DNA of 64,000 nt from Tremella fuciformis. Its lineage: Eukaryota > Basidiomycota > Tremellomycetes > Tremellales > Tremellaceae. The notes below the pieces were generated by a model. That model was not told the origin of the DNA. It did no database searches and was given only the letters and a program-made list of their open reading frames with translations. Positions 37,282 to 47,598 of this stretch are shown here, one piece after another. The position numbers were made by a program, and so were the translations under genes. The stretch lies in the NCBI GenBank assembly GCA_032768795.1, contig CP136494.1, positions 682,001-746,000 of the forward strand. The letters run 5' to 3'. Position 1 is the stretch's first letter; the number at the start of each line of letters is the position of its first letter.

Positions 37282-37291
37282 GAAGTGGAGG
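37282..37291 (+). repeat. MULE target-site duplication, left
   Basis: GAAGTGGAGG, repeated in the same orientation at 47589-47598. Confidence 0.8.
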
Positions 37292-37361
37292 CAGGGGCAA
37301 ATATTCTGGATATAATTGTAATTATTCCCGACAGGATTTCCCACGGTATCCCCGGTTTCCC
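37292..37361 (+). repeat. MULE left terminal inverted repeat
   Basis: Best-conserved stretch is ATATTCTGG and ATTCCC..ACAGGATTTC..ACGGTATCCCCGGTTTCCC, read here by eye against the reverse complement of 47518-47588; roughly 80% identical. Confidence 0.88.
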
Positions 37362-37732
37362 AATGCATAGCTCCGGAAAAGCAACAAGCTTGCGGAGGTT
37401 CTCTACACCTCTTGTCCTAGCCGTTCCCCAGCTCCGCACGCTGTCCCCCTCCTCCAGAGGGTGTCTGCTCACTGTCTGACCATACTACGCAGCGAGCGAA
37501 GCTGATTCTCACCCTTCTAATTGAATGGACCGCATCCATCAAGAAAGCTTCGCCGGAGGTCCTTTGTCGCAAGCGTAGAAGTTGATTCAACCTTACCTCG
37601 GCACAAACAAACATTGGGTTCGACGTTGTTGCCATCGTAGCTTCGCACTGTGTCTCTCACAGCTCTCATCTGCGTCTCTTCGCACCGCAACAACCGCAAA
37701 CTTCAGCCTATCTTGACTTTTTACCCTACAAT

Positions 37733-40129
37733 ATGGCTCCAAAGCAGACTACACGCTCGCCGCGCGTCTCAAAGACCGCCCGTACTTCCGCGTCGACAGA
37801 CCGCACCCTTCCTCCTCCTTCCGCTAAACTCTCGCAAGCCTTGCGGGAGTTTATGTCCAACGAAAAATCCCGCCATCCTATTCACAGAAATGAGGCGACC
37901 TTAGTCGCCGCAGAAAAACGATTTGGCGCTTCTATACAACCATGGTGGCACGCTAAGGACACTGTTCTTCCGGCCACGATGAGATCATTTGGCTGTCACG
38001 AGGCCGATTACGACAAGTTGACCTCCGGTCAATATTATACCTGTCGATCTAAGGGCCCCGCATGTCGCGACGGTTGTGTTCAACACAAAAAGGAGTGCCT
38101 ACCGGCGTTTGCATACGTGTGAGTACCTCCGCTGCCTTATATGTTACTTCCGCACACTCGCGGAACCGTCTCAAAACTTCCGCCCATGGCTCCGCTGACT
38201 GACAGGCATCCCTCCGCTGTGTGTGCCTCCGCCCAGAAGGCCGAGGGTGTCACACTCATCACTCGGACCTACGGAGGTCGGTTCGCCACCTGTCATGCGT
38301 GCTGGATGGACGGAAAACGTCCTCCCTGCAGTTGCGCACAAGTTCCGCTGAGCACTTCTACACAAGCCGGACCTTCGCAGCAAAGGGGCAATACCTCCTC
38401 TGAACCTCCGCCCTCCAGCGCCTCGCAAGACCAAGATCAAGACGAGCTGGCCGCCGAGTACGACATGGCCCCCGAGCAGTACGATCCTGACTCCATCCAC
38501 GTCGACAATCTGCCTGCGTCAGAACCGGTGGACGAGTCTTACCTCCGCAAACGACCTCTAGAGGAGGGCGAGGATGAGCTCGACTCGGACGGGGAGCCGA
38601 TCGACCCTCCGTCGAAGAAGGTCCGTCGTCCGCTAGACGTCCGCCGCCTCTCTGGAGCACTCCAGAAACTTCCGTCACCTCGTTCTTCTCCCCAACCATC
38701 CTCCGCTGGGACCCTGAGTCTCCCTCCTTCATCGCCGCTCAAAACTCCGAGGCTGGACAAAGGCAAGCAGCGGGCGGAACCTGTTACTTCCGCGACAGCG
38801 AAACCTCCGCCTTCTCGCGGTCCATCTTGGCGCACTGATTCTCAAGCTCCGCATGACTCCCCCTTAGCCGATAGATCATTTAACAATGAATCACTCCGGC
38901 CGTCAGTTCCGCCCTCGTCTCCTGCAAAAGCGCCTATCGACTATGAGGCCCGCTGGCGACATATGGCAACCGAGCCTGGCAGTTCTCGGACAGCCACACC
39001 ATATCAGACGCCTCCCGCACCTCCGCACGGTCAAGGACGTACCTCCGCTACCGTCGCACAGGTCCCTGCGCGCTCAGCTCTATCTCCGCTGGCCCTATCC
39101 TCTGCGCCAAAAACCTCCGCTGCTAGCTTAGCACCCTCCGCTCCCATCGTTTCAACCTCCGCTGTGCCGACCTCAACCTCCGCAGGCCCTAGCAAAACCT
39201 CCGCAATCCCTCGCTTGACCTCCGCTATTCCCGAGCTCTCTTCCGCACAAACCTTCGCTGTGCCAGGAAGCTCCGCTGGCACCGCAAAGTTGTCATCTGG
39301 CTCAGGTTTCCCGTTCCCTGGTTCTACCACAGCCACGACTGCGAAACAGCTGCAGACCACTTCAGAGATGTACGAAAAATTGTACTCCGCCATCGAAGAG
39401 ATTCAATCCGTGGCAGGCAGACAAGAGACATTTCTCAAGACGATCTTAGAGGATGCTTGGCACACGTACGCCGCATACTTCAAGAGCACTCGCGAAGCGG
39501 TAGAGGCCGATTTTCAGAATTTCCGATATTTCATGAAGACCTGCACGGAGGTTGCGAAAGACGACCGAGCATTCTTTGCCAATCTGGACAAGATAAGCAA
39601 AGAAAACGCGGAGGAGCTTATCAAATATAAGCGAACGGTTCGAATGCTTGAGGAGCAATGCTCCGAAGCACTGCAGGCCAAAGAACGTGCGGAGTCAGCA
39701 GCAGCAGAGAAGTTTCGAGCGTTGAATGCGGAGCTTGTGTCTAAGGAGAAGGCGAGGGAGGAATTAGCAAACCAGCTGTCCGATATGACCAACTTATGGC
39801 ATTCGGCAATCTCAGAGCGGAAGGTCGCGGAAGTTCGAGAGAAGGAGGCCTGGGAAAAGGCCAATAACATCGTGGAGGAGATGAAGACGCAGCGGGACGC
39901 AGCTGTTGCTGAGGCGACGCTCAATGCGGAGCTACGGGACGTCGCTCTGCGTCGAGCGGAGGAAGCCGAGGCTAGTGCGGAGGTTCAGCGGGACCGACCA
40001 AGAGTGCAGCGGAGGTACTCCTTTGGAGCTACGCCGTCTCTGGGCCCCATCCCCAGGCCTTTCCCCGCTCTGACTCTTCGCTCTTTGCCTTCTCACAAGA
40101 GCGCATCTCCTGTGTCGGGGAACGTTTGA
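37733..40129 (+). CDS. MULE accessory protein, cysteine-rich plus coiled coil
   Basis: Two exons (37733-38118, 38206-40129) total 2310 nt, exactly 770 codons. The N-terminal 180 residues hold a cysteine-rich region (YYTCRSKGPACRDGCVQHKK, then RFATCHACWMDGKRPPCSC) that could bind zinc and DNA. A disordered Pro/Ser/Thr segment follows, including many TSA tripeptides encoded by the ACCTCCGC octamer. Then comes a long C-terminal coiled coil (EELIKYKRTVRMLEEQCSEA onward). I do not recognise the family. Being inside the inverted repeats, it presumably serves the transposon, for example as a DNA-binding or assembly factor; that is inference. Confidence 0.8.
39019..39225 (+). repeat. Seven exact ACCTCCGC octamers in coding sequence
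   Basis: Exact copies start at 39019, 39041, 39113, 39155, 39176, 39197 and 39218; variants (ATCTCCGC, CCCTCCGC, TCTTCCGC) lie between them. In frame they encode Thr-Ser-Ala. Confidence 0.92.
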
Positions 40130-40268
40130 TGCGAGCATCGTGTACATAGTTTGTTTCTCAGCCTTTGGGTCTACGTGTAACATGACCGCAGCTCGTCTCT
40201 TCATGTATTGTGACATGCATGTCTTGTGGTATGTCTTTTTTACATGTACTATGCATCCCAACCACTTC

Positions 40269-43200
40269 TCATACCATCGCCATCAGCTCCTCTCGACTCC
40301 ACAGTCTGTGCGCCCACTGGCCTCGCGCTTCCGCTGTCAACCACTGAGTTCCGGCTGGCAACCTTGAAAGGCTTGATGATAAGGCAAGGCGTAGGGCCCA
40401 ATGGCGAAGAGCACGACCAAAATCAGGATTTTCGTACACGAACCGAAAGTCTCGCTCAACATCTCCGGGGCGATACCCGAGACTCAGCTCAACGATGGCC
40501 AGCAGCGCCAGTGGACCACAACTGTAGCCGTCGTTCTGTTCGAGCCAGCCAAGCTGATCTCTAGTCCTCTGAGTGTCAGCTGGCCGCATGACTAGGCAAC
40601 AATCTCTGACCGATCCAAGGGGAGCAATAATCCATCCTTCATTATCCCTTTCCGTCACCAGGTTCTTCCGCAGCTCCCAGTTCAGGCGCTCTTGCAGAGA
40701 AAAGCGAAGATTCTGCCTTCAGCCTGGCTCTCTGTTGCCTCGACTCACCTCCTCTCTTTTGGGGTCGTGCTTGCCGTAACCATCATAGATTGCAAGCAGC
40801 TTTTCGGGGCCGTAGACGACCAGCAGTACCCAATGCTGATTCGCGGGTAGGCCAAGCAGAAGTACCGAAATCTGATCGCGCCAAGAGGCGTCCTTGCCCA
40901 TGGAGTGGAAGGGTACGTCTTCCTTTTTCGGCAACTTCCAGCTTGGCGTTAGACAAGAGAAGCGGAGCCGGACGGCCGGAAGCTGTAGGGGTCGGCTTTC
41001 CCGCGAATCAATCTTCGATTTCGCTGAAACTAGTTCGGCTACAGAGGCTGCAAGGTTCTCGATTAGGAAGTTGCTCCACCATTCCGTCGGGGAAGACAGA
41101 TAGCCCCAAGATCTTTTGTTAAGAGTAGCATCTAAGCCGTAGAGCGGAAGTGTGCCGGAACGTATTCCACGCGGAGCAGGATCTGCATCGAATGCAGTAG
41201 TTATTGCCGCGATAGCTGCGGCGTCTGGCCACGGCGAGGTGAGCTCCATGGATATGCGATGCATTACCCTTTTCGAAGTGCTCGTTGCAACGCGCCAAGG
41301 AATGTTCGACAAGCGTCGCTGAATTTCCGCAAAGAGGGGGTCGATCTCGTATGATCGAACGCCTCTGTCCACTCCATGATCAGCAGTGTCCTGACGTTGC
41401 AGCTCGATAGTTTCGCCGGCGGAATCGGAGGCCGAGTGGCGGTGGTAGAAAAGGTGCTTCGGTAGGCGAGTCCCAGTGAAGACGTCACTCATCAACAAGA
41501 ACCTGGTGACCTTGCCGTCATCGATCTCCCACCAGGCTCCTTCTGAGAGGACAATACAAACGTAATGCCCGACATTCTTGTAGCAAATGACACCGCATAG
41601 CTGGTATTCCTCCCCATCGAAAGCTACCATACCGCGTCGATCGCCAGAGAGGACACTCAGCGGAAGGGAGACAGGAATTTGGAAAGTCCCGCTCATCGAA
41701 GGGCGGCCGTCTTCTCCCGCGAGCCATGCAATTTCGACAGACAGGATGGGAGGCGGTGACGCCTGGCCAAGCTCTACGAGCTGTCCAATTAATGCCTGGC
41801 GGGTTGGAACACCGCAAGTAGGACATATTGCTCCATTGTCCTGCATATGAAGAGAATGTCGAATCATATCCTCAAGGGAAGGGGACTGGCCGCGGAGGAA
41901 AGCATGATGACCGGGCTTGACGATTAGACCCAGCATGAGGCTATTGGCTCTTGCGCCCGGCGTGTCGACCATCGCCCTATGTTCGCAAGGACCCGGAAAA
42001 GTCCACTGGATCCTCAGGCCGACGAGGTTGCTGAAAGCCGTGGCTTCGAGAGCTCCATCAAGGCGTGAGAGAAGGCGTCCCAGTGTTTCTGAAGGGTCAT
42101 GGTGGTCTGGTTGTCCGGTTGAGGCAGGAGAGTCAAGGATTCCGTCAACTGTCAAACATTAGCAAGTCGAGCTCGAAGGAAAGACGAATTGAACGCACTC
42201 CGCAGTCTGTCATTCATGTTCTTGATGTCGACCACTGTCATAGTCCTAACGGCGTGCAGGAATTCCTCCAGTAAAGTCACGATGTTTGGACATGAACAGC
42301 GCAGCGCGTCTTTGTTTCGCTCAAAGACTTCGACGAAGGCCTTCTGACGGAGAACAATATGGAAGAGGCTGAGGGCAAAGCACTGGTTCCCCTTGTTGTT
42401 CTTGCCCCCAGCCGGACGGGTGACGGGGGCGAGCGGAATTGCAAGCGATGACTTTTGCCCACGATTCTTTGCCAATGAGCTTCGGTTTGGGTGAAGAGGG
42501 CGGAGGCGTGCAGGGCGCCCAGAGAGCTGAACTTCCGCTGGCGCTTCGCCTTGGGCTAGCGTCGTCTTCGGTGGGGAGGCAGATGGGGTCCGAGCCCGCT
42601 TGCGAGCTCTTGCTGCTCTTCGATTGACAGGCTCACTTGGTCTATCTTCCGCGTCGAGATCCGCGCTGTCGATAGAAATCATTTTGGAACCGTTTGGGCG
42701 ATAAGGTGCTTCCCCTGGCTCTGATGGTGTGAGGCGGGGATCGTAGGTTCCGCCATACCATTGGCGGAGGTCCCAAGCGTCCTCCTCGATATTGATGGCT
42801 GACGTGCGAAGTGCCTTGGAATTGATACTTCCGCATGCTTTTCTCCATTCCGAGCTCGCAGACTTTTCTATGGCGTATTGTATAGCCGTAGCTTGTGACT
42901 CAAACTCTTGCACGCGCCCACAGTGCTGTAGGTAGGCCCAAGCATACAGAGCGCAGCATTGCTTGCCGGTCTGTTGAAAGTATGGACAGGAGCAGAATTG
43001 CCTTTTGCCACCGGTTCTGATTCCGCAGTAATGGGTGATATGTGGGTCATCCGGGTCTTCGACAGCGTGAGTCTCTTCGAGCTGGGGAACTGAGGACGGA
43101 GTCTCGCTCAAGGAGCAGAGTCGGATGCTATCGGTCGACCAGAGGCGGAGACCATCTCTACTTGCTTTCCGGACTTGAGGGTCTGATCGCTGCTTCTCCG

Positions 43201-45755
43201 GAGGGTATGATTGGAACGAGGGGAAAAAGTCGACAACAATGATGACTACAAGTCGATCAAGTCGTTTGTTTGCGACTCCGTCGAGGTAAACTCTGTCGAA
43301 GACGCGAAAGGCTCCTTCCACCAGATTGTTAGTGGTAAACGGTCCCCCTCGAGTCACGTTGGGCGGAAGTCCATAATCGACAAGACATTCCCGCCAACGA
43401 TCGCTAAACCACCAGTTCATAAGCCAGGTATCGATCTTGCTCCATATCGTCTCGATCGACTGATCCGGCCGCAGCAAAGCTCTGATGCTTTGGCGGAACT
43501 CTTCGTAAACGTCCGGCCACTGGCTTTCGTCCGGGCATCTCTGGCATTTTCGTAATGCTCGCAGGAAACACACCGTCTGTAGTCTGCCTCGCTCATTCCT
43601 GCCGAAGAGGTGACCTCCCTTGAGACGAGCAGCTTGCATGAAGTGGAACTGGCACAAGATTATGGTGACATTTCCCCACACCTCTCGAATAGCGTTCCTC
43701 TCAGCGTCGTCGCAGTCGATGGTCACAAAGGCGGGACAAAATTCTTCCGCTACCACCACGTCCTCCGCATACGAGAGGAGATCTGCGGAATGCTTTGCCG
43801 GAAGGGTGGACCTGTCGGGCTCATCAAGTATTCGCTGTGCTTCGTCCTGGATCGCTTGTCGGACTTTGCGGAGGAACATGGTGTAAGTCTCGGTGTCGGC
43901 ATGGCTAGAAACCATGACAGCAACTACTAGTGAGCTTACGAGTGATGGACAGAGGAGTGCTAGGCGTACCTGGGACGAGGTGCCCATATTCATTTGACGT
44001 CGATACGATTGTGACGGGGCTACGATTCGCATTTTTGTTCCGCCAGGAGCTATCAACGTTGAGCCCGTTTTCAGCTGCAAAGCGCAGGGCGTTATGTAGA
44101 CCATGAGGGGGGGCGATGATACACATGAAGCGAGAATTTTTGTCGAAGCGAGGTGATCGCATGTCATAGAGAAGCGATGGATACTCGCAGCTGACAAGTG
44201 AGCATCTCCTCCCGGAAACTTGAGCACTTGCCGGGACTCACAATAGGAAGCTTTCGGGATGCCTTCGGTTCAGTACCTCGATAGCAGCTAGTGGCATCTC
44301 GTCCAGCCGTTCGCGCCGCATAGCTGTCTCCAGAGCTGTCTCGAAGTCCTTCTCGGTGGGTCCCTGATGCGCCAATGGCCCATTTGCCGCCAACATTGTG
44401 CGATGAGCACTCCCATTTCGCTCGCTGATCTTCCATAGCTTCTTCATCTTGCTCATCAAGGTTCCTAATGATGTGGCGGAGGTGTGTAGGAAGTTACGCG
44501 CGGCCAGGGAGATTCGGAGGAGCTCCTTGTTCTGCGGTTCCGCATGAAATTCCGGCATGCCGAGGATGAGAAACGCTACACCCTTCTCTATGGATGACGG
44601 CGTCATCTCAAGCTGGCGACTTCAGCCATTGGGACTCCAGGTGGAATGCAACAAACTCACAAAGAGATTGAAAGGGCAAGGAGCATGCTTTCTCGTGGGA
44701 ATGACTTCTTCCGGCGTATCATCTCGTTCTTGAGGATGATCAAGAAGCTGCAGGAAGTTGTCGGTCTTTCCGCTCGGGTTGACGTGTAGATGGTAGGCGG
44801 GATCCACTCTCTCGCAACTGCCCGAACACGTGTAGACGGATCTCCATACACATTTGTCCGGGCCTTCTTCCAACGCGTACGAATCGACGGCGAACTTCGC
44901 AAACCGCCCGCGTACATCGTAAGGCTTGAGACCGGGGGGTCCCAAGAATCGAACAGTCACGAGTTTGGAGACTGTTTGATATTGTAGGTTGTAATCGTTA
45001 TTCTACTTACTCAGCACGCTCATGAACAACATGGTAGTTCTCACCAGGGAATCGAAAACAATTGGCAGCTGATCGAGGAGAACCTGTTTCTTCTCATATG
45101 CGGCAGCATCGTGAAGCGGAGGTCCGACGCCGGAGAGGTATTTCTCGACCAGGCGATAGTTCGCTGCGAGCTGCAAGTTGATGCCCGGCATGGCTTGGCG
45201 GTCCTCAATTGCCTTCACTTCATCGTCATGCAGTATCGGCAGATCATCTCCCCAATCCTCCAAGGCCCGACGACTCCAGAATTCCTCCCGAGCCGGCAAA
45301 GAGTCGTCTAAAATGGGAGCGTAGGTGGTAGCATTCCGAGCGCGGAGCTTAGGCGTTTCCGCTGCCTGAATCGACGAGGCCTCGAGGGGCCGGAAACGGC
45401 CGATCCTCGGTGTGTCAGACGGAGTGTGCTCGTCATCTCTTGTATGAGTGCCGAACGAGACATCTGAGCCGAGATCTAGGTTCTGTGGGGCGCTGGCCGA
45501 GTTGTCGAGAAGCTCTGAAGAGGGCTGAGCGGAGAAAGGGGATGCGGCCGGCCTATCTTTTGCTCGATCAAGCACTGAAGCTTTAGACTGCGGGGTCGGA
45601 TAGGCAGTCGGAGTGGGTGAACAGCTGGACGATCGCGCGATCAAATCAGGGGAGCTTGCAGTGACAGGTCGGTATTGATATGCTGGTCGGCCAGGGGTAC
45701 GGCTGGCCAAGCTGCCGACCGGGATGCTCACCCGCGGTAGCGATTTCTTCCCCAT
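40269..45755 (-). CDS. MULE transposase fused to USP-like and Ulp1-like protease domains
   Basis: Seven exons: 45755-45011, 44971-44661, 44612-44242, 44190-43970, 43926-42199, 42148-40749 and 40712-40269. They total 5220 nt, exactly 1740 codons. Order: a disordered N-terminus (MGKKSLPRVS); a region ending CEYPSLLYDM; the MULE transposase core (VSSHADTETYTMFL, then TIDCDDAERNAIREVW near 620 and CQFHFMQAARL near 645); and a SWIM-like CSCPYFQQTGKQC. Next a USP Cys box (GNQCFALSLFHIVL, Cys near 1065), a CPTC pair and a USP His box (NVGHYVCIVLSEGAWWEIDD, His near 1320). Last a C48/Ulp1 triad: H near 1564 (NQHWVLLVVYG), D near 1581 (IYDGYG), Q1651 and C1657 (QNDGYSCGPLAL). Expected nuclear. MULEs with Ulp1 are known in plants; I know of none joined to a USP domain. 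Confidence 0.88.
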
Positions 45756-45995
45756 CGATGGCAAGTGAGAGACAGTCAAAGAGCAAGCAGTGATGAGGAA
45801 ACAGCAAGTCAGATGCGACACGCACGCACCTGTGAGAAGCAAAAACACACTAACGGGCAAACACGGGGAAGTTGGATGATTATCTACGCGCAATGACCCC
45901 GGCCATCACTTGAGCCCGTGATGTTTGTATCTTGCAATCCCAAATTCTTTCAACAGCCCTACAATACTTGCGACCTGCCCCAGCCGATCAATAGC

Positions 45996-46552
45996 ATGGC
46001 CGAAAGCATTAATGCGCACACCAGCAGGATCTTCCGCGAGTTGGAGGGGACAAGGGTCGGCATCGAAGGCGGGACAAGGTTACGACAAGGGCGGGGCTTC
46101 GTAGAATTAAGGCGGACCTACAACGCCGTCTACGGAGAGTACGGGCCTTTCGCTTGGTCGGTTGTGATGGCGCATGAAGGGCCTCTGGTGGCTACACAGT
46201 CAGTTCTGGCTGGCACAGCGTTTCCGGAAGTTCCGCTGACGTTGAGGATTGAATTTGACGGCTTGACTTTCACGATTCATGGCACACACCATAGCACGAT
46301 GTTTCCATTCTCGAATGGCTATACTCCTGGCATCATCATGGAGGAGTATGGCGCCTTCCTCAGGCTCATGAGTCCAAAAAAAAGGCCGGAGTGAGTAATA
46401 AGTGCCGAAGAGGACAGTCAGACTGCTGAGCTGATGTCAGCCTCGTCGAGCGGGTCCTGGACATTTTAGACGAGTGGGAGGTGTTGCTGCCCCAGGGTCG
46501 CAACTTCCTGTGGACGCTATGCAAGGTGTTTGCCCCGGAGGCCTTTCAGTGA
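45996..46552 (+). CDS. MULE accessory protein, 168 residues
   Basis: Two exons (45996-46390, 46441-46552) total 507 nt, 169 codons. An alternative in-frame ATG at 45921 would add 25 residues. Helical start (AESINAHTSRIFRELEGTRV), a beta-rich middle (GPFAWSVVMAHEGPLVATQS, LTLRIEFDGLTFTIHG) and a short helical end in the second exon (LVERVLDILDEWEVLL). I do not recognise it. It starts about 240 bp from the divergently transcribed transposase start, so the two probably share a promoter region. Confidence 0.65.
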
Positions 46553-47517
46553 CACCTCCAGCGAGGCGGAAATTCGGGCGGAAGTTGTAATGGCGAGGAC
46601 GGACGGGATGCTCCATCGAGGCGAGCCTACAAAGGGAGAAGCGGGGCAGCCAGCGGGCAGGGCGAGACAGAGATATGATCTGGACTCTTTACGGTAGAAT
46701 GTTAGGTCTTTTGGGACAGCTCTGTGTGTAGCAAGCCTCATGCACCGCTCTGCCGGCAGCATGATCCTGTGATCGTGATAGCTTGCGCTACGATAAGTGC
46801 GGACATGCAACATCAGCTCAATCAAATGTACGCCAGGGTGACAGTGCTCACCGCTTCTGTCGCAGAATGCCTGTAGTCATTGCAGCAGGTTGGATGTCTG
46901 AGATGCAACTGCCACCGCTGTGTCAAGCCGTTCCCTTCGACCCAAGGGACCATTCGTTCCGCACCACCCGCCGGCCAAGCGCCGCTTTGCAAAGGCTCGA
47001 ACGAGATCAGCGGATGCCTGCCCTTCCCGTTCTTTGCATCGCCGCCCGCAAAGTCGAAGACTGGCTCCCCGATGGACATACGTGCGCTTTGCCTTGGCCC
47101 CCTGTGTCTGGGTGTCGGCCGATGCTGCAGAGCGTACAGAGGAGTCCGGGTATGGTGACGACTTCGGGGAAAGCAGAGAATCAGAGGGAACTGGTGAATG
47201 CGAAGACCTTGCGACGTCGCAGCGGATCCGCAGCGGATCCGCAGGGATGGATCGGACCCTCTGCGGAGACGCAGTCGAAGCAGATCCTCCGCAGCGGTTC
47301 CGTTGCGACAGAAAGGAACCCTCGCCGTTGAGTCTGCGGAGGTTGGTGGCAATGTGTCTGACAGGCTTTCGCGCACCCTCAAAGTTGGCAGAGATGTCCG
47401 CTTCTGACTACATAAGAAGACTTGAGAGCTAGATATGCGCATATGCAATCTGGACTGGACGAAATAGACTTTGTATGGTTCCGCCGGAGATCTGTAGAGT
47501 TCTCCGCTGAACCTGTC
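46553..47517. other. MULE right subterminal region
   Basis: Non-coding, about 960 bases, with clustered CCGC/GCGG motifs, including a direct repeat of AGCGGATCCGC at 47221-47243 and GCGGAGGT at 47336-47343. Likely transposase-binding sites; inference. Confidence 0.5.
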
Positions 47518-47588
47518 GGGAAACCGGGGATACCGTGAGAAATCCTGTTGGGAATAAATACGATTATGTCCAGAATATCTGGTTTTGC
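47518..47588 (-). repeat. MULE right terminal inverted repeat
   Basis: Reverse complement of the left repeat with scattered differences; about 71 bp. Confidence 0.88.
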
Positions 47589-47598
47589 GAAGTGGAGG
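47589..47598 (+). repeat. MULE target-site duplication, right
   Basis: GAAGTGGAGG, matching 37282-37291. Confidence 0.8.

Follow-up and report, generated by a model that had tools for sequence, protein, structure and literature searches.

Several Mutator-like elements (MULEs) that carry Ulp1-type protease domains have been described in plants, namely, the KAONASHI/KIU VANDAL elements of Arabidopsis and elements of melon, rice and grapevine (PMC13317346, PMC2528002). In VANDALs, a protein encoded by the element recognises short motifs of its own family and counters silencing (PMC13317346). The comparisons made here draw on parts of each cited paper, and a feature said not to be mentioned is absent from those parts. 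The element that we describe, found in a 64,000-nucleotide stretch of the Tremella fuciformis genome (the window), resembles KAONASHI/KIU and the other plant Ulp1 MULEs in combining a Mutator-like element with an Ulp1-type protease domain, and some plant MULEs in that the ULP region is oriented as the transposase. However, KIU is of the VANC gene type, belongs to non-TIR elements and runs in reverse to mudrA in KI-MULEs, with no USP mentioned, whereas in the window the Ulp1-like domain is fused to the transposase together with a USP domain and the element has terminal inverted repeats (TIRs), which sets it outside KAONASHI/KIU.

Proteases of these types also occur in other DNA transposons. Mutator transposons of hydra and lancelet carry Ulp1, and Ginger1 transposases have a C-terminal Ulp1 or OTU domain (PMC2836005); these share with our element ubiquitin/SUMO-type proteases in DNA-transposon proteins, in Ginger1 likewise fused C-terminally, but the table of that paper gives a single protease type per transposase and no USP. 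A Trichomonas protein joins Transposase_11 to Peptidase C19, that is, a transposase to a USP-type domain, but its transposase is of another type and an Ulp1 domain is not mentioned (PMC2836005). Plant CACTA elements combine Tnp2 and ULP1 domains, hence a DNA transposase with Ulp1, but their transposase is of the CACTA type and USP is not mentioned (PMC2528002). The 121 VTD-containing Helitrons that carry OTU too (PMC9741609) likewise have two different deubiquitinase folds per transposon, but in a rolling-circle RepHel protein and as VTD/OTU rather than USP/Ulp1. Among host enzymes, USP12/USP46 (C19) and SENP/Ulp1 (C48) resemble our two domains in catalytic residues and probably in fold, but they are not fused to transposases and the PDB matches of the two domains are at low sequence identity (7-22%).

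The earlier note on this DNA knew of no described element that joins both protease types to a transposase, and we likewise found no MULE with USP and Ulp1 in the PMC literature, searched mostly by title or abstract opening, a scope outside which Repbase Reports and most subscription journals lie. MULE plus Ulp1, transposase plus C19 and double-deubiquitinase Helitrons are known already, and within the literature searched the combination MULE plus USP plus Ulp1 appears to be new.

A complete Mutator-like element

The following features delimit the element and its smaller genes.

37291..47588, no strand: complete Mutator-like element, 10,298 bp, defined by its TIRs and target site duplication (TSD)
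37282..37290, no strand: left 9-bp TSD, GAAGTGGAG, identical to 47589-47597
47589..47597, no strand: right 9-bp TSD, GAAGTGGAG, same letters as the left
37291..37361, plus strand: left TIR, starting with GCA; over a 64-nt core it is 91% complementary to the right TIR
47518..47588, minus strand: right TIR, pairing with the left end
37734..40129, plus strand: second gene (ORF2), convergent with the transposase gene; ORFs 37586-38122 and 38123-40129
45897..46394, plus strand: third, small ORF coding for 165 aa and running divergently from the transposase gene, in the 3 copies of the family

The gene had been taken for part of a transposon; all of it indeed lies between TIRs flanked by a TSD, and the complete element goes beyond the earlier claim. 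MULEs generate target site duplications of 9-10 bp. The 9-bp duplication here agrees with this, as do those at both copies of a diverged sister family, whose TIRs of about 100 bp are likewise in keeping with a MULE; an automatic search of the short loci of other lineages found no TIRs. The left-end sequence of the element occurs at three places in the genome, and there are three near-identical copies (in the window, on C3 and on C10). The copy at C3:207149-217456 is 99.835% identical to the window element over 10,314 columns and is flanked by its own, different 9-bp TSD, CCTCCAGAG, which indicates that the element moved recently; a TSD was looked for at the C10 copy and not found. We consider this anatomy of the element almost certainly correct.

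ORF2 has one likely intron (about 38119-38205), its start and intron being assigned by eye, and encodes a protein with a Cys-rich N-terminus and a coiled-coil-like C-terminus. Pfam gives it no match above cut-off, and a database search at E 1e-3 found no homologue; the sister element on C4, however, contains a weak relative (28% identical, E 9.5e-5) in the same arrangement. The third ORF is confined to the family's three copies, is interrupted by a single stop on C10, and a Pfam search with it gave no match.

Gene model of the transposase

40269..45755, minus strand: transposase gene, 8 exons, 1723 aa, junctions adjusted to relatives
45755-45045, 45002-44661, 44612-44242 and 44190-43970, minus strand: exons 1-4
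43923-42199, 42148-40749, 40712-40611 and 40568-40269, minus strand: exons 5-8

The seven-exon model first proposed could be rebuilt exactly (1740 codons in 5220 nt, a single stop at the end, 1739 residues), but relatives favour eight exons and 1723 residues. We rejected its exon 1/2 and exon 4/5 junctions and its last exon because they add residues that are absent from relatives. Intron 1 at 45010-44972 was replaced by 45044-45003, the end of intron 4 was moved 3 nt later, and the single last exon was split, within the Ulp1-like coding part, by an overlooked in-frame intron of 42 nt (40610-40569). P0007, a predicted protein of 800 residues, supports the first two corrections and stops short of the third. 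We infer all exon junctions of this gene from sequence.

The junction at 42199/42148 bears on whether the fusion is an artefact, that is, whether the transposase stops near 42152 and a host gene next to it encodes the proteases. The frame does change there and the junction is read from genomic sequence, but the shift can be bridged by a GT-AG intron of 50 nt that has a CTAAT branch-like site, and the sister-family model has an intron at roughly the equivalent place to 42198-42149. Moreover, the entire gene is enclosed by TIRs, other species have annotated fusion proteins, and the domain distances are congruent (see below), so that we regard an artefact as almost certainly the wrong explanation.

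Domains of the fusion protein

43259..44132, minus strand: MULE DDE core (PF10551), residues 495-770, spanning intron 43969-43924
42929..43036, minus strand: SWIM-like cysteines C859, C861 and C871, from alignment with relatives
41463..42421, minus strand: USP (C19) domain (PF00443), residues 1050-1352, spanning intron 42198-42149
40356..41048, minus strand: Ulp1-like (CE clan) domain, residues 1491-1695, with introns 40748-40713 and 40610-40569 and the order H-D-Q-C

Pfam matches and alignment with relatives bear out the domain order and catalytic residues described earlier. On the 1739-residue protein, PF10551 scores 27.8 bits, just above its cut-off of 27.6; its scores are 37.8-42.5 bits in P0001, P0002 and P0004-P0006, and 28.0 in P0003. 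Together with D521, D618 and E751, which all 15 aligned sequences share and which we take to be the putative catalytic D-D-E, this upholds the MULE core. The three SWIM-like cysteines are present, but Ala873 takes the place of the SWIM His, which 10 of the 15 sequences have, and the Pfam SWIM match is below cut-off.

The USP boxes reported before are backed by PF00443 (UCH), which matches residues 1057-1342 of the same protein with 32.6 bits (cut-off 23.9). Cys box, His box and Asp follow in the order of peptidase C19 (N1058, C1063, D1141 box, C1232xxC1235, H1318, D1333/D1334). By analogy with USP7, we presume that the first Asp of the pair is the catalytic one; it is Ser in the C1 lineage. 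The Asn preceding the USP Cys is absent from P0006, and several members have an incomplete set of USP zinc-finger cysteines. We also considered a USPL1-like identity (a SUMO-cutting USP). The window domain reached two USPL1 chains in PDB at E 0.7-0.9, but Pfam C98 scored 13.5 bits against 25.2 for UCH on a fragment and did not match the whole protein, and USPL1 is absent among the 60 matches listed of the 80 PDB matches to the USP domain profile; our rejection covers identity, not specificity.

The complete C48 triad claimed for the last domain stands as to residues and order (H1562, D1579, Q1635, C1641; H and D in 10 of 10, Q and C in 8 of 8 aligned sequences), but Peptidase_C48 (PF02902) scores 15.8 bits on the 1739-residue protein, below the curated cut-off of 20.7, and we therefore class the domain as Ulp1-like of the CE clan rather than as C48. 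C48 had no match in P0001 (E<=10) or P0002-P0006 (E<=1), PF02902 found two loci resembling host Ulp genes and no element in the whole genome, and a PDB sequence search with the domain gave nothing useful. Of the two predicted folds, that of USP was seen, for the relative P0002 rather than for the window protein; the Ulp1-like model is of low confidence, with no Foldseek match at E<=1e-3. The better of its matches are SENPs and deubiquitinases, which argues against a role in maturation, whereby the Ulp1-like domain cleaves the element's own long protein and USP alone edits tags. The adenovirus protease, also of the CE clan, cuts viral proteins; even so, we find maturation very improbable.

Relatives and age of the fusion

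Diverged elements elsewhere in this genome, at about 25-50% identity, have the same domain order with catalytic residues kept, and the search of other basidiomycetes that had been proposed finds the order in proteins annotated in Tremella mesenterica and in Tremellales sp. Uapishka_1. The fusion therefore goes beyond chance, since three near-identical copies and diverged lineages share the order and the catalytic residues. The lineage keeps one protease of each type in cis with a transposase across several fungi, and its near-identical copies bear on why transposons repeatedly acquire ubiquitin/SUMO-type proteases. The Kockovaella entry P0006, labelled 'USP domain-containing protein', belongs to this group of transposases and should not be read as a usual deubiquitinase of the host.

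In a comparison made without the MULE relative C4:126813, the MULE, USP and Ulp1-like domains co-diverge with congruent distances, from which it follows that the fusion is old. The congruence holds with trimmed MULE segments for P0004, P0006 and C6; the USP-Ulp1 correlation is weaker without P0003 (r 0.47, 39 of 5000). Nonsynonymous changes per site are fewer than synonymous ones, which shows purifying selection, though on small counts. Some relatives are incomplete: C4c has a full USP and no Ulp1 that we found, C1b a full USP and a weak Ulp1 fragment, and C5b and L023 the USP Cys box alone. Hence the Ulp1-like domain can be lost, although a few of the loci concerned may simply not extend far enough. 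The 3.3-kb loci L001-L008, taken for ordinary MULE families and too short for proving absence, have no USP/Ulp1 profile match and no dispersed motif. Such losses, and the frequent capture of host sequences by MULEs (PMC13317346), would suit proteases that are captured, functionless host fragments, but the retention of catalytic residues across lineages at about 25-50% identity, the deficit of nonsynonymous changes and the greater divergence of both interdomain linkers than of the domains make such passive cargo scarcely plausible.

A dispersed motif and the possible roles of the proteases

37392..47507, both strands: 84 YTCCGC/GCGGAR motifs in CDS, introns and non-coding DNA

The motif reaches 8.2 per kb against a background of 1.35 per kb (about 6-fold); 200 dinucleotide shuffles gave a mean of 16.4 and a maximum of 31 against the 84 observed, and the count is about 3-fold above synonymous-codon shuffles. 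YTCCGC is enriched in the window element and the diverged sister family, another lineage carries GCGATCGC, and C6, C1b, C5d, C4c and C5b show no clear motif; the motif is thus family-specific across the lineages compared, and it is linked to the proteases solely by occurrence in the same elements.

The proteases probably serve in tag removal. The transposase, or the Cys-rich second protein, might bind the element via the dense motif and hold both proteases there; their targets would be the transposase itself, histones, or proteins of host silencing or repair, which they would free of ubiquitin- and SUMO-type tags, so that element expression would be maintained and the transposition complex would escape tagging for destruction. 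Taken as a whole, the explanation that we moderately favour is a TIR Mutator-like element, autonomous and mobile until recently or still, whose transposase has acquired two C-terminal cysteine proteases that are inherited together in Tremellales and would strip such tags at the element or the transposition complex. That they act against silencing at the element's own chromatin is conceivable, if somewhat doubtful. The earlier note, which proposed a transposon able to strip both tags, perhaps to protect its transposase or to reverse host silencing, is partly supported in this.

The proteases could instead clear ubiquitin/SUMO chains off the transposition complex and avert its proteasomal destruction, with the motif unrelated (e.g. 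transposase binding sites). The in-cis fusion fits such self-protection, and Helitron VTD deubiquitinases have been suggested to shield transposition proteins from degradation (PMC9741609), but a motif spread over coding and non-coding DNA is left unexplained, and we think it fairly unlikely. Action on ubiquitin/SUMO-regulated host DNA-repair or replication factors, easing repair at excision or insertion sites, has been proposed for Ulp1/OTU transposons (PMC2836005), and the fusion would put the proteases at the break; we rate it as improbable.

Returning to tag removal at the element, its most specific form is unlikely: these would be self-addressing anti-silencing machines. Selection would preserve the motif, which is YTCCGC in two lineages and GCGATCGC in a third, even where it lies in coding DNA, and the motif would draw in a protein of the element that either carries a deubiquitinase and a deSUMOylase or is accompanied by them; ubiquitin and SUMO signals of host silencing would then be erased on the element alone. 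The YTCCGC-rich elements recall the plant VANDAL/KIU system, where a motif-recognising protein, in some cases with Ulp1, counters silencing, but differ from VANDALs, as far as the available text goes (PMC13317346), in that the motif lies in coding DNA as well. Were the link to the motif true, mobile elements would have arrived independently for a second time at anti-silencing addressed by sequence, here in a separately evolved fungal counterpart of plant VANC/KIU with a known enzymatic output.

The transposase gene and its element

A repeat search around the gene detected inverted repeats of 64 nt, 91% complementary and spaced 10.2 kb apart; inspection of the ends found GCA at the start of both termini, and a perfect 9-bp duplication (GAAGTGGAG) flanks the element at 37282-37290 and 47589-47597. 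Therefore, the gene is the transposase of a complete Mutator-like element of 10,298 bp, with the following features:

37291-47588: Mutator-like element
45755-40269, minus strand: transposase gene
about 37734-40129, plus strand: ORF2, a second gene convergent with the transposase
45897-46394, plus strand: small third ORF, found only in the three copies of the window family

The ORF2 product, Cys-rich at its N-terminus and coiled-coil-like at its C-terminus, found no match in Pfam or database searches, and is a candidate DNA-binding partner. A weak relative (28%, E 9.5e-5) lies at C4:1832092-1832679 (C1 to C11 denote host contigs), inside a sister element with the same convergent arrangement. 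A 21-nt spaced repeat of ACCTCCGC-type units occupies 39112-39225 within ORF2. The third ORF had no match in a Pfam search.

The seven-exon gene model of the earlier note, encoding 1739 residues, was reproduced exactly, with 5220 nt, 1740 codons and a single, terminal stop. In a Pfam scan of this protein, UCH (32.6 bits) lay above the cut-off and MULE (27.8 bits) just above it, but Peptidase_C48 (15.8 bits) fell below. This model includes residues that are missing from P0007, a predicted protein of the same family (2.5-kb contig), and from relatives in other species. Because of this, the gene is better predicted to have 8 exons and 1723 residues, with intron 1 probably at 45044-45003, intron 4 probably ending at 43924, and a putative added in-frame intron of 42 nt at 40610-40569, a third change on which P0007, stopping short of it, is silent.

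Copies and relatives of the element

The window family has three copies in the 28.1-Mb, 11-contig host assembly. The copy at C3:207149-217456 is 99.835% identical to the window element over 10,314 columns (six mismatches, two gap openings), with two amino-acid differences between the proteins, and is flanked by its own 9-bp duplication CCTCCAGAG; the near-identity and the separate duplication show that it inserted recently and independently. The C10 copy has 98-99% identity across long pieces, and no target duplication was found for it. An insert of about 14.6 kb (C10:583596-598177) interrupts its MULE core, and the two halves share a 5-bp overlap, as might be expected if another element had made a 5-bp target duplication there. 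The sister elements at C2:15423-24290 and C4:1825130-1833993 also have GCA-ended terminal inverted repeats and 9-bp duplications.

A protein search with query residues 450-1739 identified P0001 of Tremella mesenterica (35% identity over 90%), and a six-row profile search, in which 7995 candidates were scored, recovered nine proteins:

P0001, P0002, P0003, P0005: T. mesenterica
P0004: Tremellales sp. Uapishka_1
P0006: Kockovaella imperatae
P0007: predicted protein, window family
P0008: Kwoniella newhampshirensis
P0009: Rhizoctonia, named as a deubiquitinase

MULE, USP and Ulp1-like profile matches all occur in P0002-P0005. MULE and UCH both exceed their Pfam cut-offs in P0002-P0006; in P0001 Pfam matched MULE and did not find UCH. 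Our USP profile (rows: window, C2, C1, C6, C1b and P0001) matches P0002-P0006, none of them a row, with E 3e-40 or lower. Our Ulp1-like profile (rows: window, C2, C1, C6 and P0001) gives a nearly full-length match in P0002-P0005, matches P0001, itself a row, up to the annotated protein end, and matches P0006 weakly, in a gene model from which the His/Asp part is missing. Both P0007 and P0008 stop short of the proteases.

Using a custom spliced aligner, we modelled the diverged lineages of the host genome, namely, C2/C4a, C1/C4b/C8, C6, C1b, C11a, C5d, C4c and C5b. C2/C4a matches the window protein at about 46% in the MULE part and 39% in the proteases (tblastn). At loci outside the profiles, the USP profile matched C11a (2e-36), C5d (8e-34) and C4c (5e-22), and the Cys box alone in C5b and L023; the Ulp1-like profile matched C11a (5e-23) and C5d (2e-22). 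Counting ten lineages, to the exclusion of one further relative (C4:126813), a full USP domain is present in eight (window, C2, C1, C6, C1b, C11a, C5d and C4c) and a full H-D-Q-C Ulp1-like domain in five (window, C2, C1, C6 and C11a). C5d has the H and D, and its locus ends too soon for the rest; in C4c, C1b, C5b and L023, profile search and modelling found no Ulp1-like domain or fragments alone.

Inheritance, catalytic residues and selection

Pairwise distances of trimmed domain segments are correlated between the MULE core and both USP (r 0.89, 13 sequences) and Ulp1-like domains (r 0.80, 10 sequences), with 0/5000 permutations as high in either case. Removal of P0003, one of the closest pair, left r at 0.82 and 0.67, respectively (both 0/5000), and lowered that between USP and Ulp1 from 0.74 to 0.47 (39/5000). 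The fusion therefore most likely predates the separation of these lineages, and the domains have remained linked since.

For residue counts we excluded near-identical copies (C3, C10, C4a, C4b, C8), P0005 (almost identical to P0002 but changed in part of its Cys box), the incomplete domains of C5b and L023, P0007 and, for Ulp1, P0006; P0008 entered for MULE only. The USP Cys and His are conserved in all 13 aligned domains, as is the second Asp of the Asp pair; the first, which we take to be the catalytic one as in USP7, is found in 12 (Ser in C1), and an Asn 5 or 6 residues N-terminal of the Cys also in 12 (Arg in P0006). The Ulp1-like His and Asp are present in 10/10 domains, and the Gln and Cys in all eight that extend to this region (P0001 and C5d stop before it). 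Putative DDE residues are conserved in 15/15 MULE cores, and the SWIM His in 10 of 15 sequences, with Ala in the window element.

Between the C2 and C4a proteases, 9 of 397 synonymous and 4 of 1193 nonsynonymous sites differ (Fisher p 0.0009), and between those of the window and C10, 9/400 and 9/1217 (p 0.023). The comparison of window with C2 shows saturation at synonymous sites, and the nonsynonymous proportion is 0.29 in MULE, 0.38 in USP and 0.44 in Ulp1, versus 0.47 and 0.57 in the two linkers. Both proteases are probably active, to judge from purifying selection and the conservation of their catalytic residues.

A dispersed motif

In the window element, YTCCGC/GCGGAR occurs at 84 sites, or 8.2 per kb, about six times the background of 1.35 per kb, whereas 200 dinucleotide shuffles gave a mean of 16.4 and a maximum of 31; the 21-nt repeat tract in ORF2 supplies seven of the 84. 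YTCCGC is similarly dense in the C2 and C4 sister elements (8.6 and 8.7 per kb). The C1/C4b/C8 lineage (C1:8166300-8173236; C8:1533232-1538820) has another motif, CGATCG, which occurs 30 times in 6.9 kb, mostly as the palindrome GCGATCGC; less clearly, TTCGAA is dispersed in C11a (14 sites in 8.7 kb). Top 6-mer scores were 9.7 for the window element, 14.1 for C2, 18.7 for C1 and 9.3 for C11a, against 3.2-6.5 in eight partly overlapping 9-kb window slices outside the element; since palindromes were scored twice, the C1 and C11a scores are inflated by about 1.4, which brings C11a close to the highest control scores. Shorter loci (3.1-4.6 kb), seven with host genes and eight with ordinary MULEs, scored 2.8-3.8, and the scan of C6, C5d, C4c, C5b and C1b (3.0-5.6) yielded nothing clear.

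In aligned coding sequence, four of the 34 core sites of the window coincide with the 43 of C2, above the 0.3 expected, but the majority do not, which means that simple inheritance does not account for most sites. The motif is common to two families with saturated synonymous sites, and its positions are mostly non-homologous. Compared with synonymous-codon shuffles, YTCCGC is in about threefold excess in the transposase (32 vs 10.7), in C2 (34 vs 11.2) and in ORF2 (34 vs 9.3 for 38171-40126, a stretch that takes in a few intron bases and the repeat tract), as is the C1 coding sequence's own motif (14 vs 3.9), each with 0/500 as high. Control coding sequences showed no YTCCGC excess (C6, 9 vs 7.7; C1, 8 vs 6.0), nor did CGATCG in the window transposase (4 vs 3.1). 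By eye, the likely ORF2 intron is motif-rich too.

Possible role and known elements

PMC13317346 describes how a protein encoded by VANDAL MULEs recognises short motifs belonging to its family and causes hypomethylation; some versions (KIU) bear an Ulp1 domain. The elements described here have similar ingredients, but differ in having terminal inverted repeats, the Ulp1-like domain on the transposase itself, an added USP, and a motif that lies in both coding and non-coding DNA. Given this resemblance, by a different route, we tentatively prefer the reading that the proteases might strip ubiquitin/SUMO-type tags locally, at the element; ranked next, and only slightly less likely, is that they protect the transposase itself.

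PMC2836005 reports Mutator transposons with Ulp1 from hydra, lancelet and plants, Ginger1 transposases that carry Ulp1 or OTU, and a Trichomonas protein that joins Transposase_11 to C19. Ulp1 is also reported in plant MULEs and CACTAs (PMC2528002), and VTD deubiquitinases in Helitrons, 121 of these also with OTU (PMC9741609). Mutator elements of Tremella fuciformis are mentioned without domain detail in the part of PMC13066641 available. Within these sources and the rest of the literature searched, to the extent accessible, we found no element combining a MULE transposase, USP and Ulp1, in line with the earlier note, which knew of none joining both protease types to a transposase. P0006 carries the public-database name "USP domain-containing protein"; it is a transposase of the same group as the window protein, and entries like it may get counted among host deubiquitinases.
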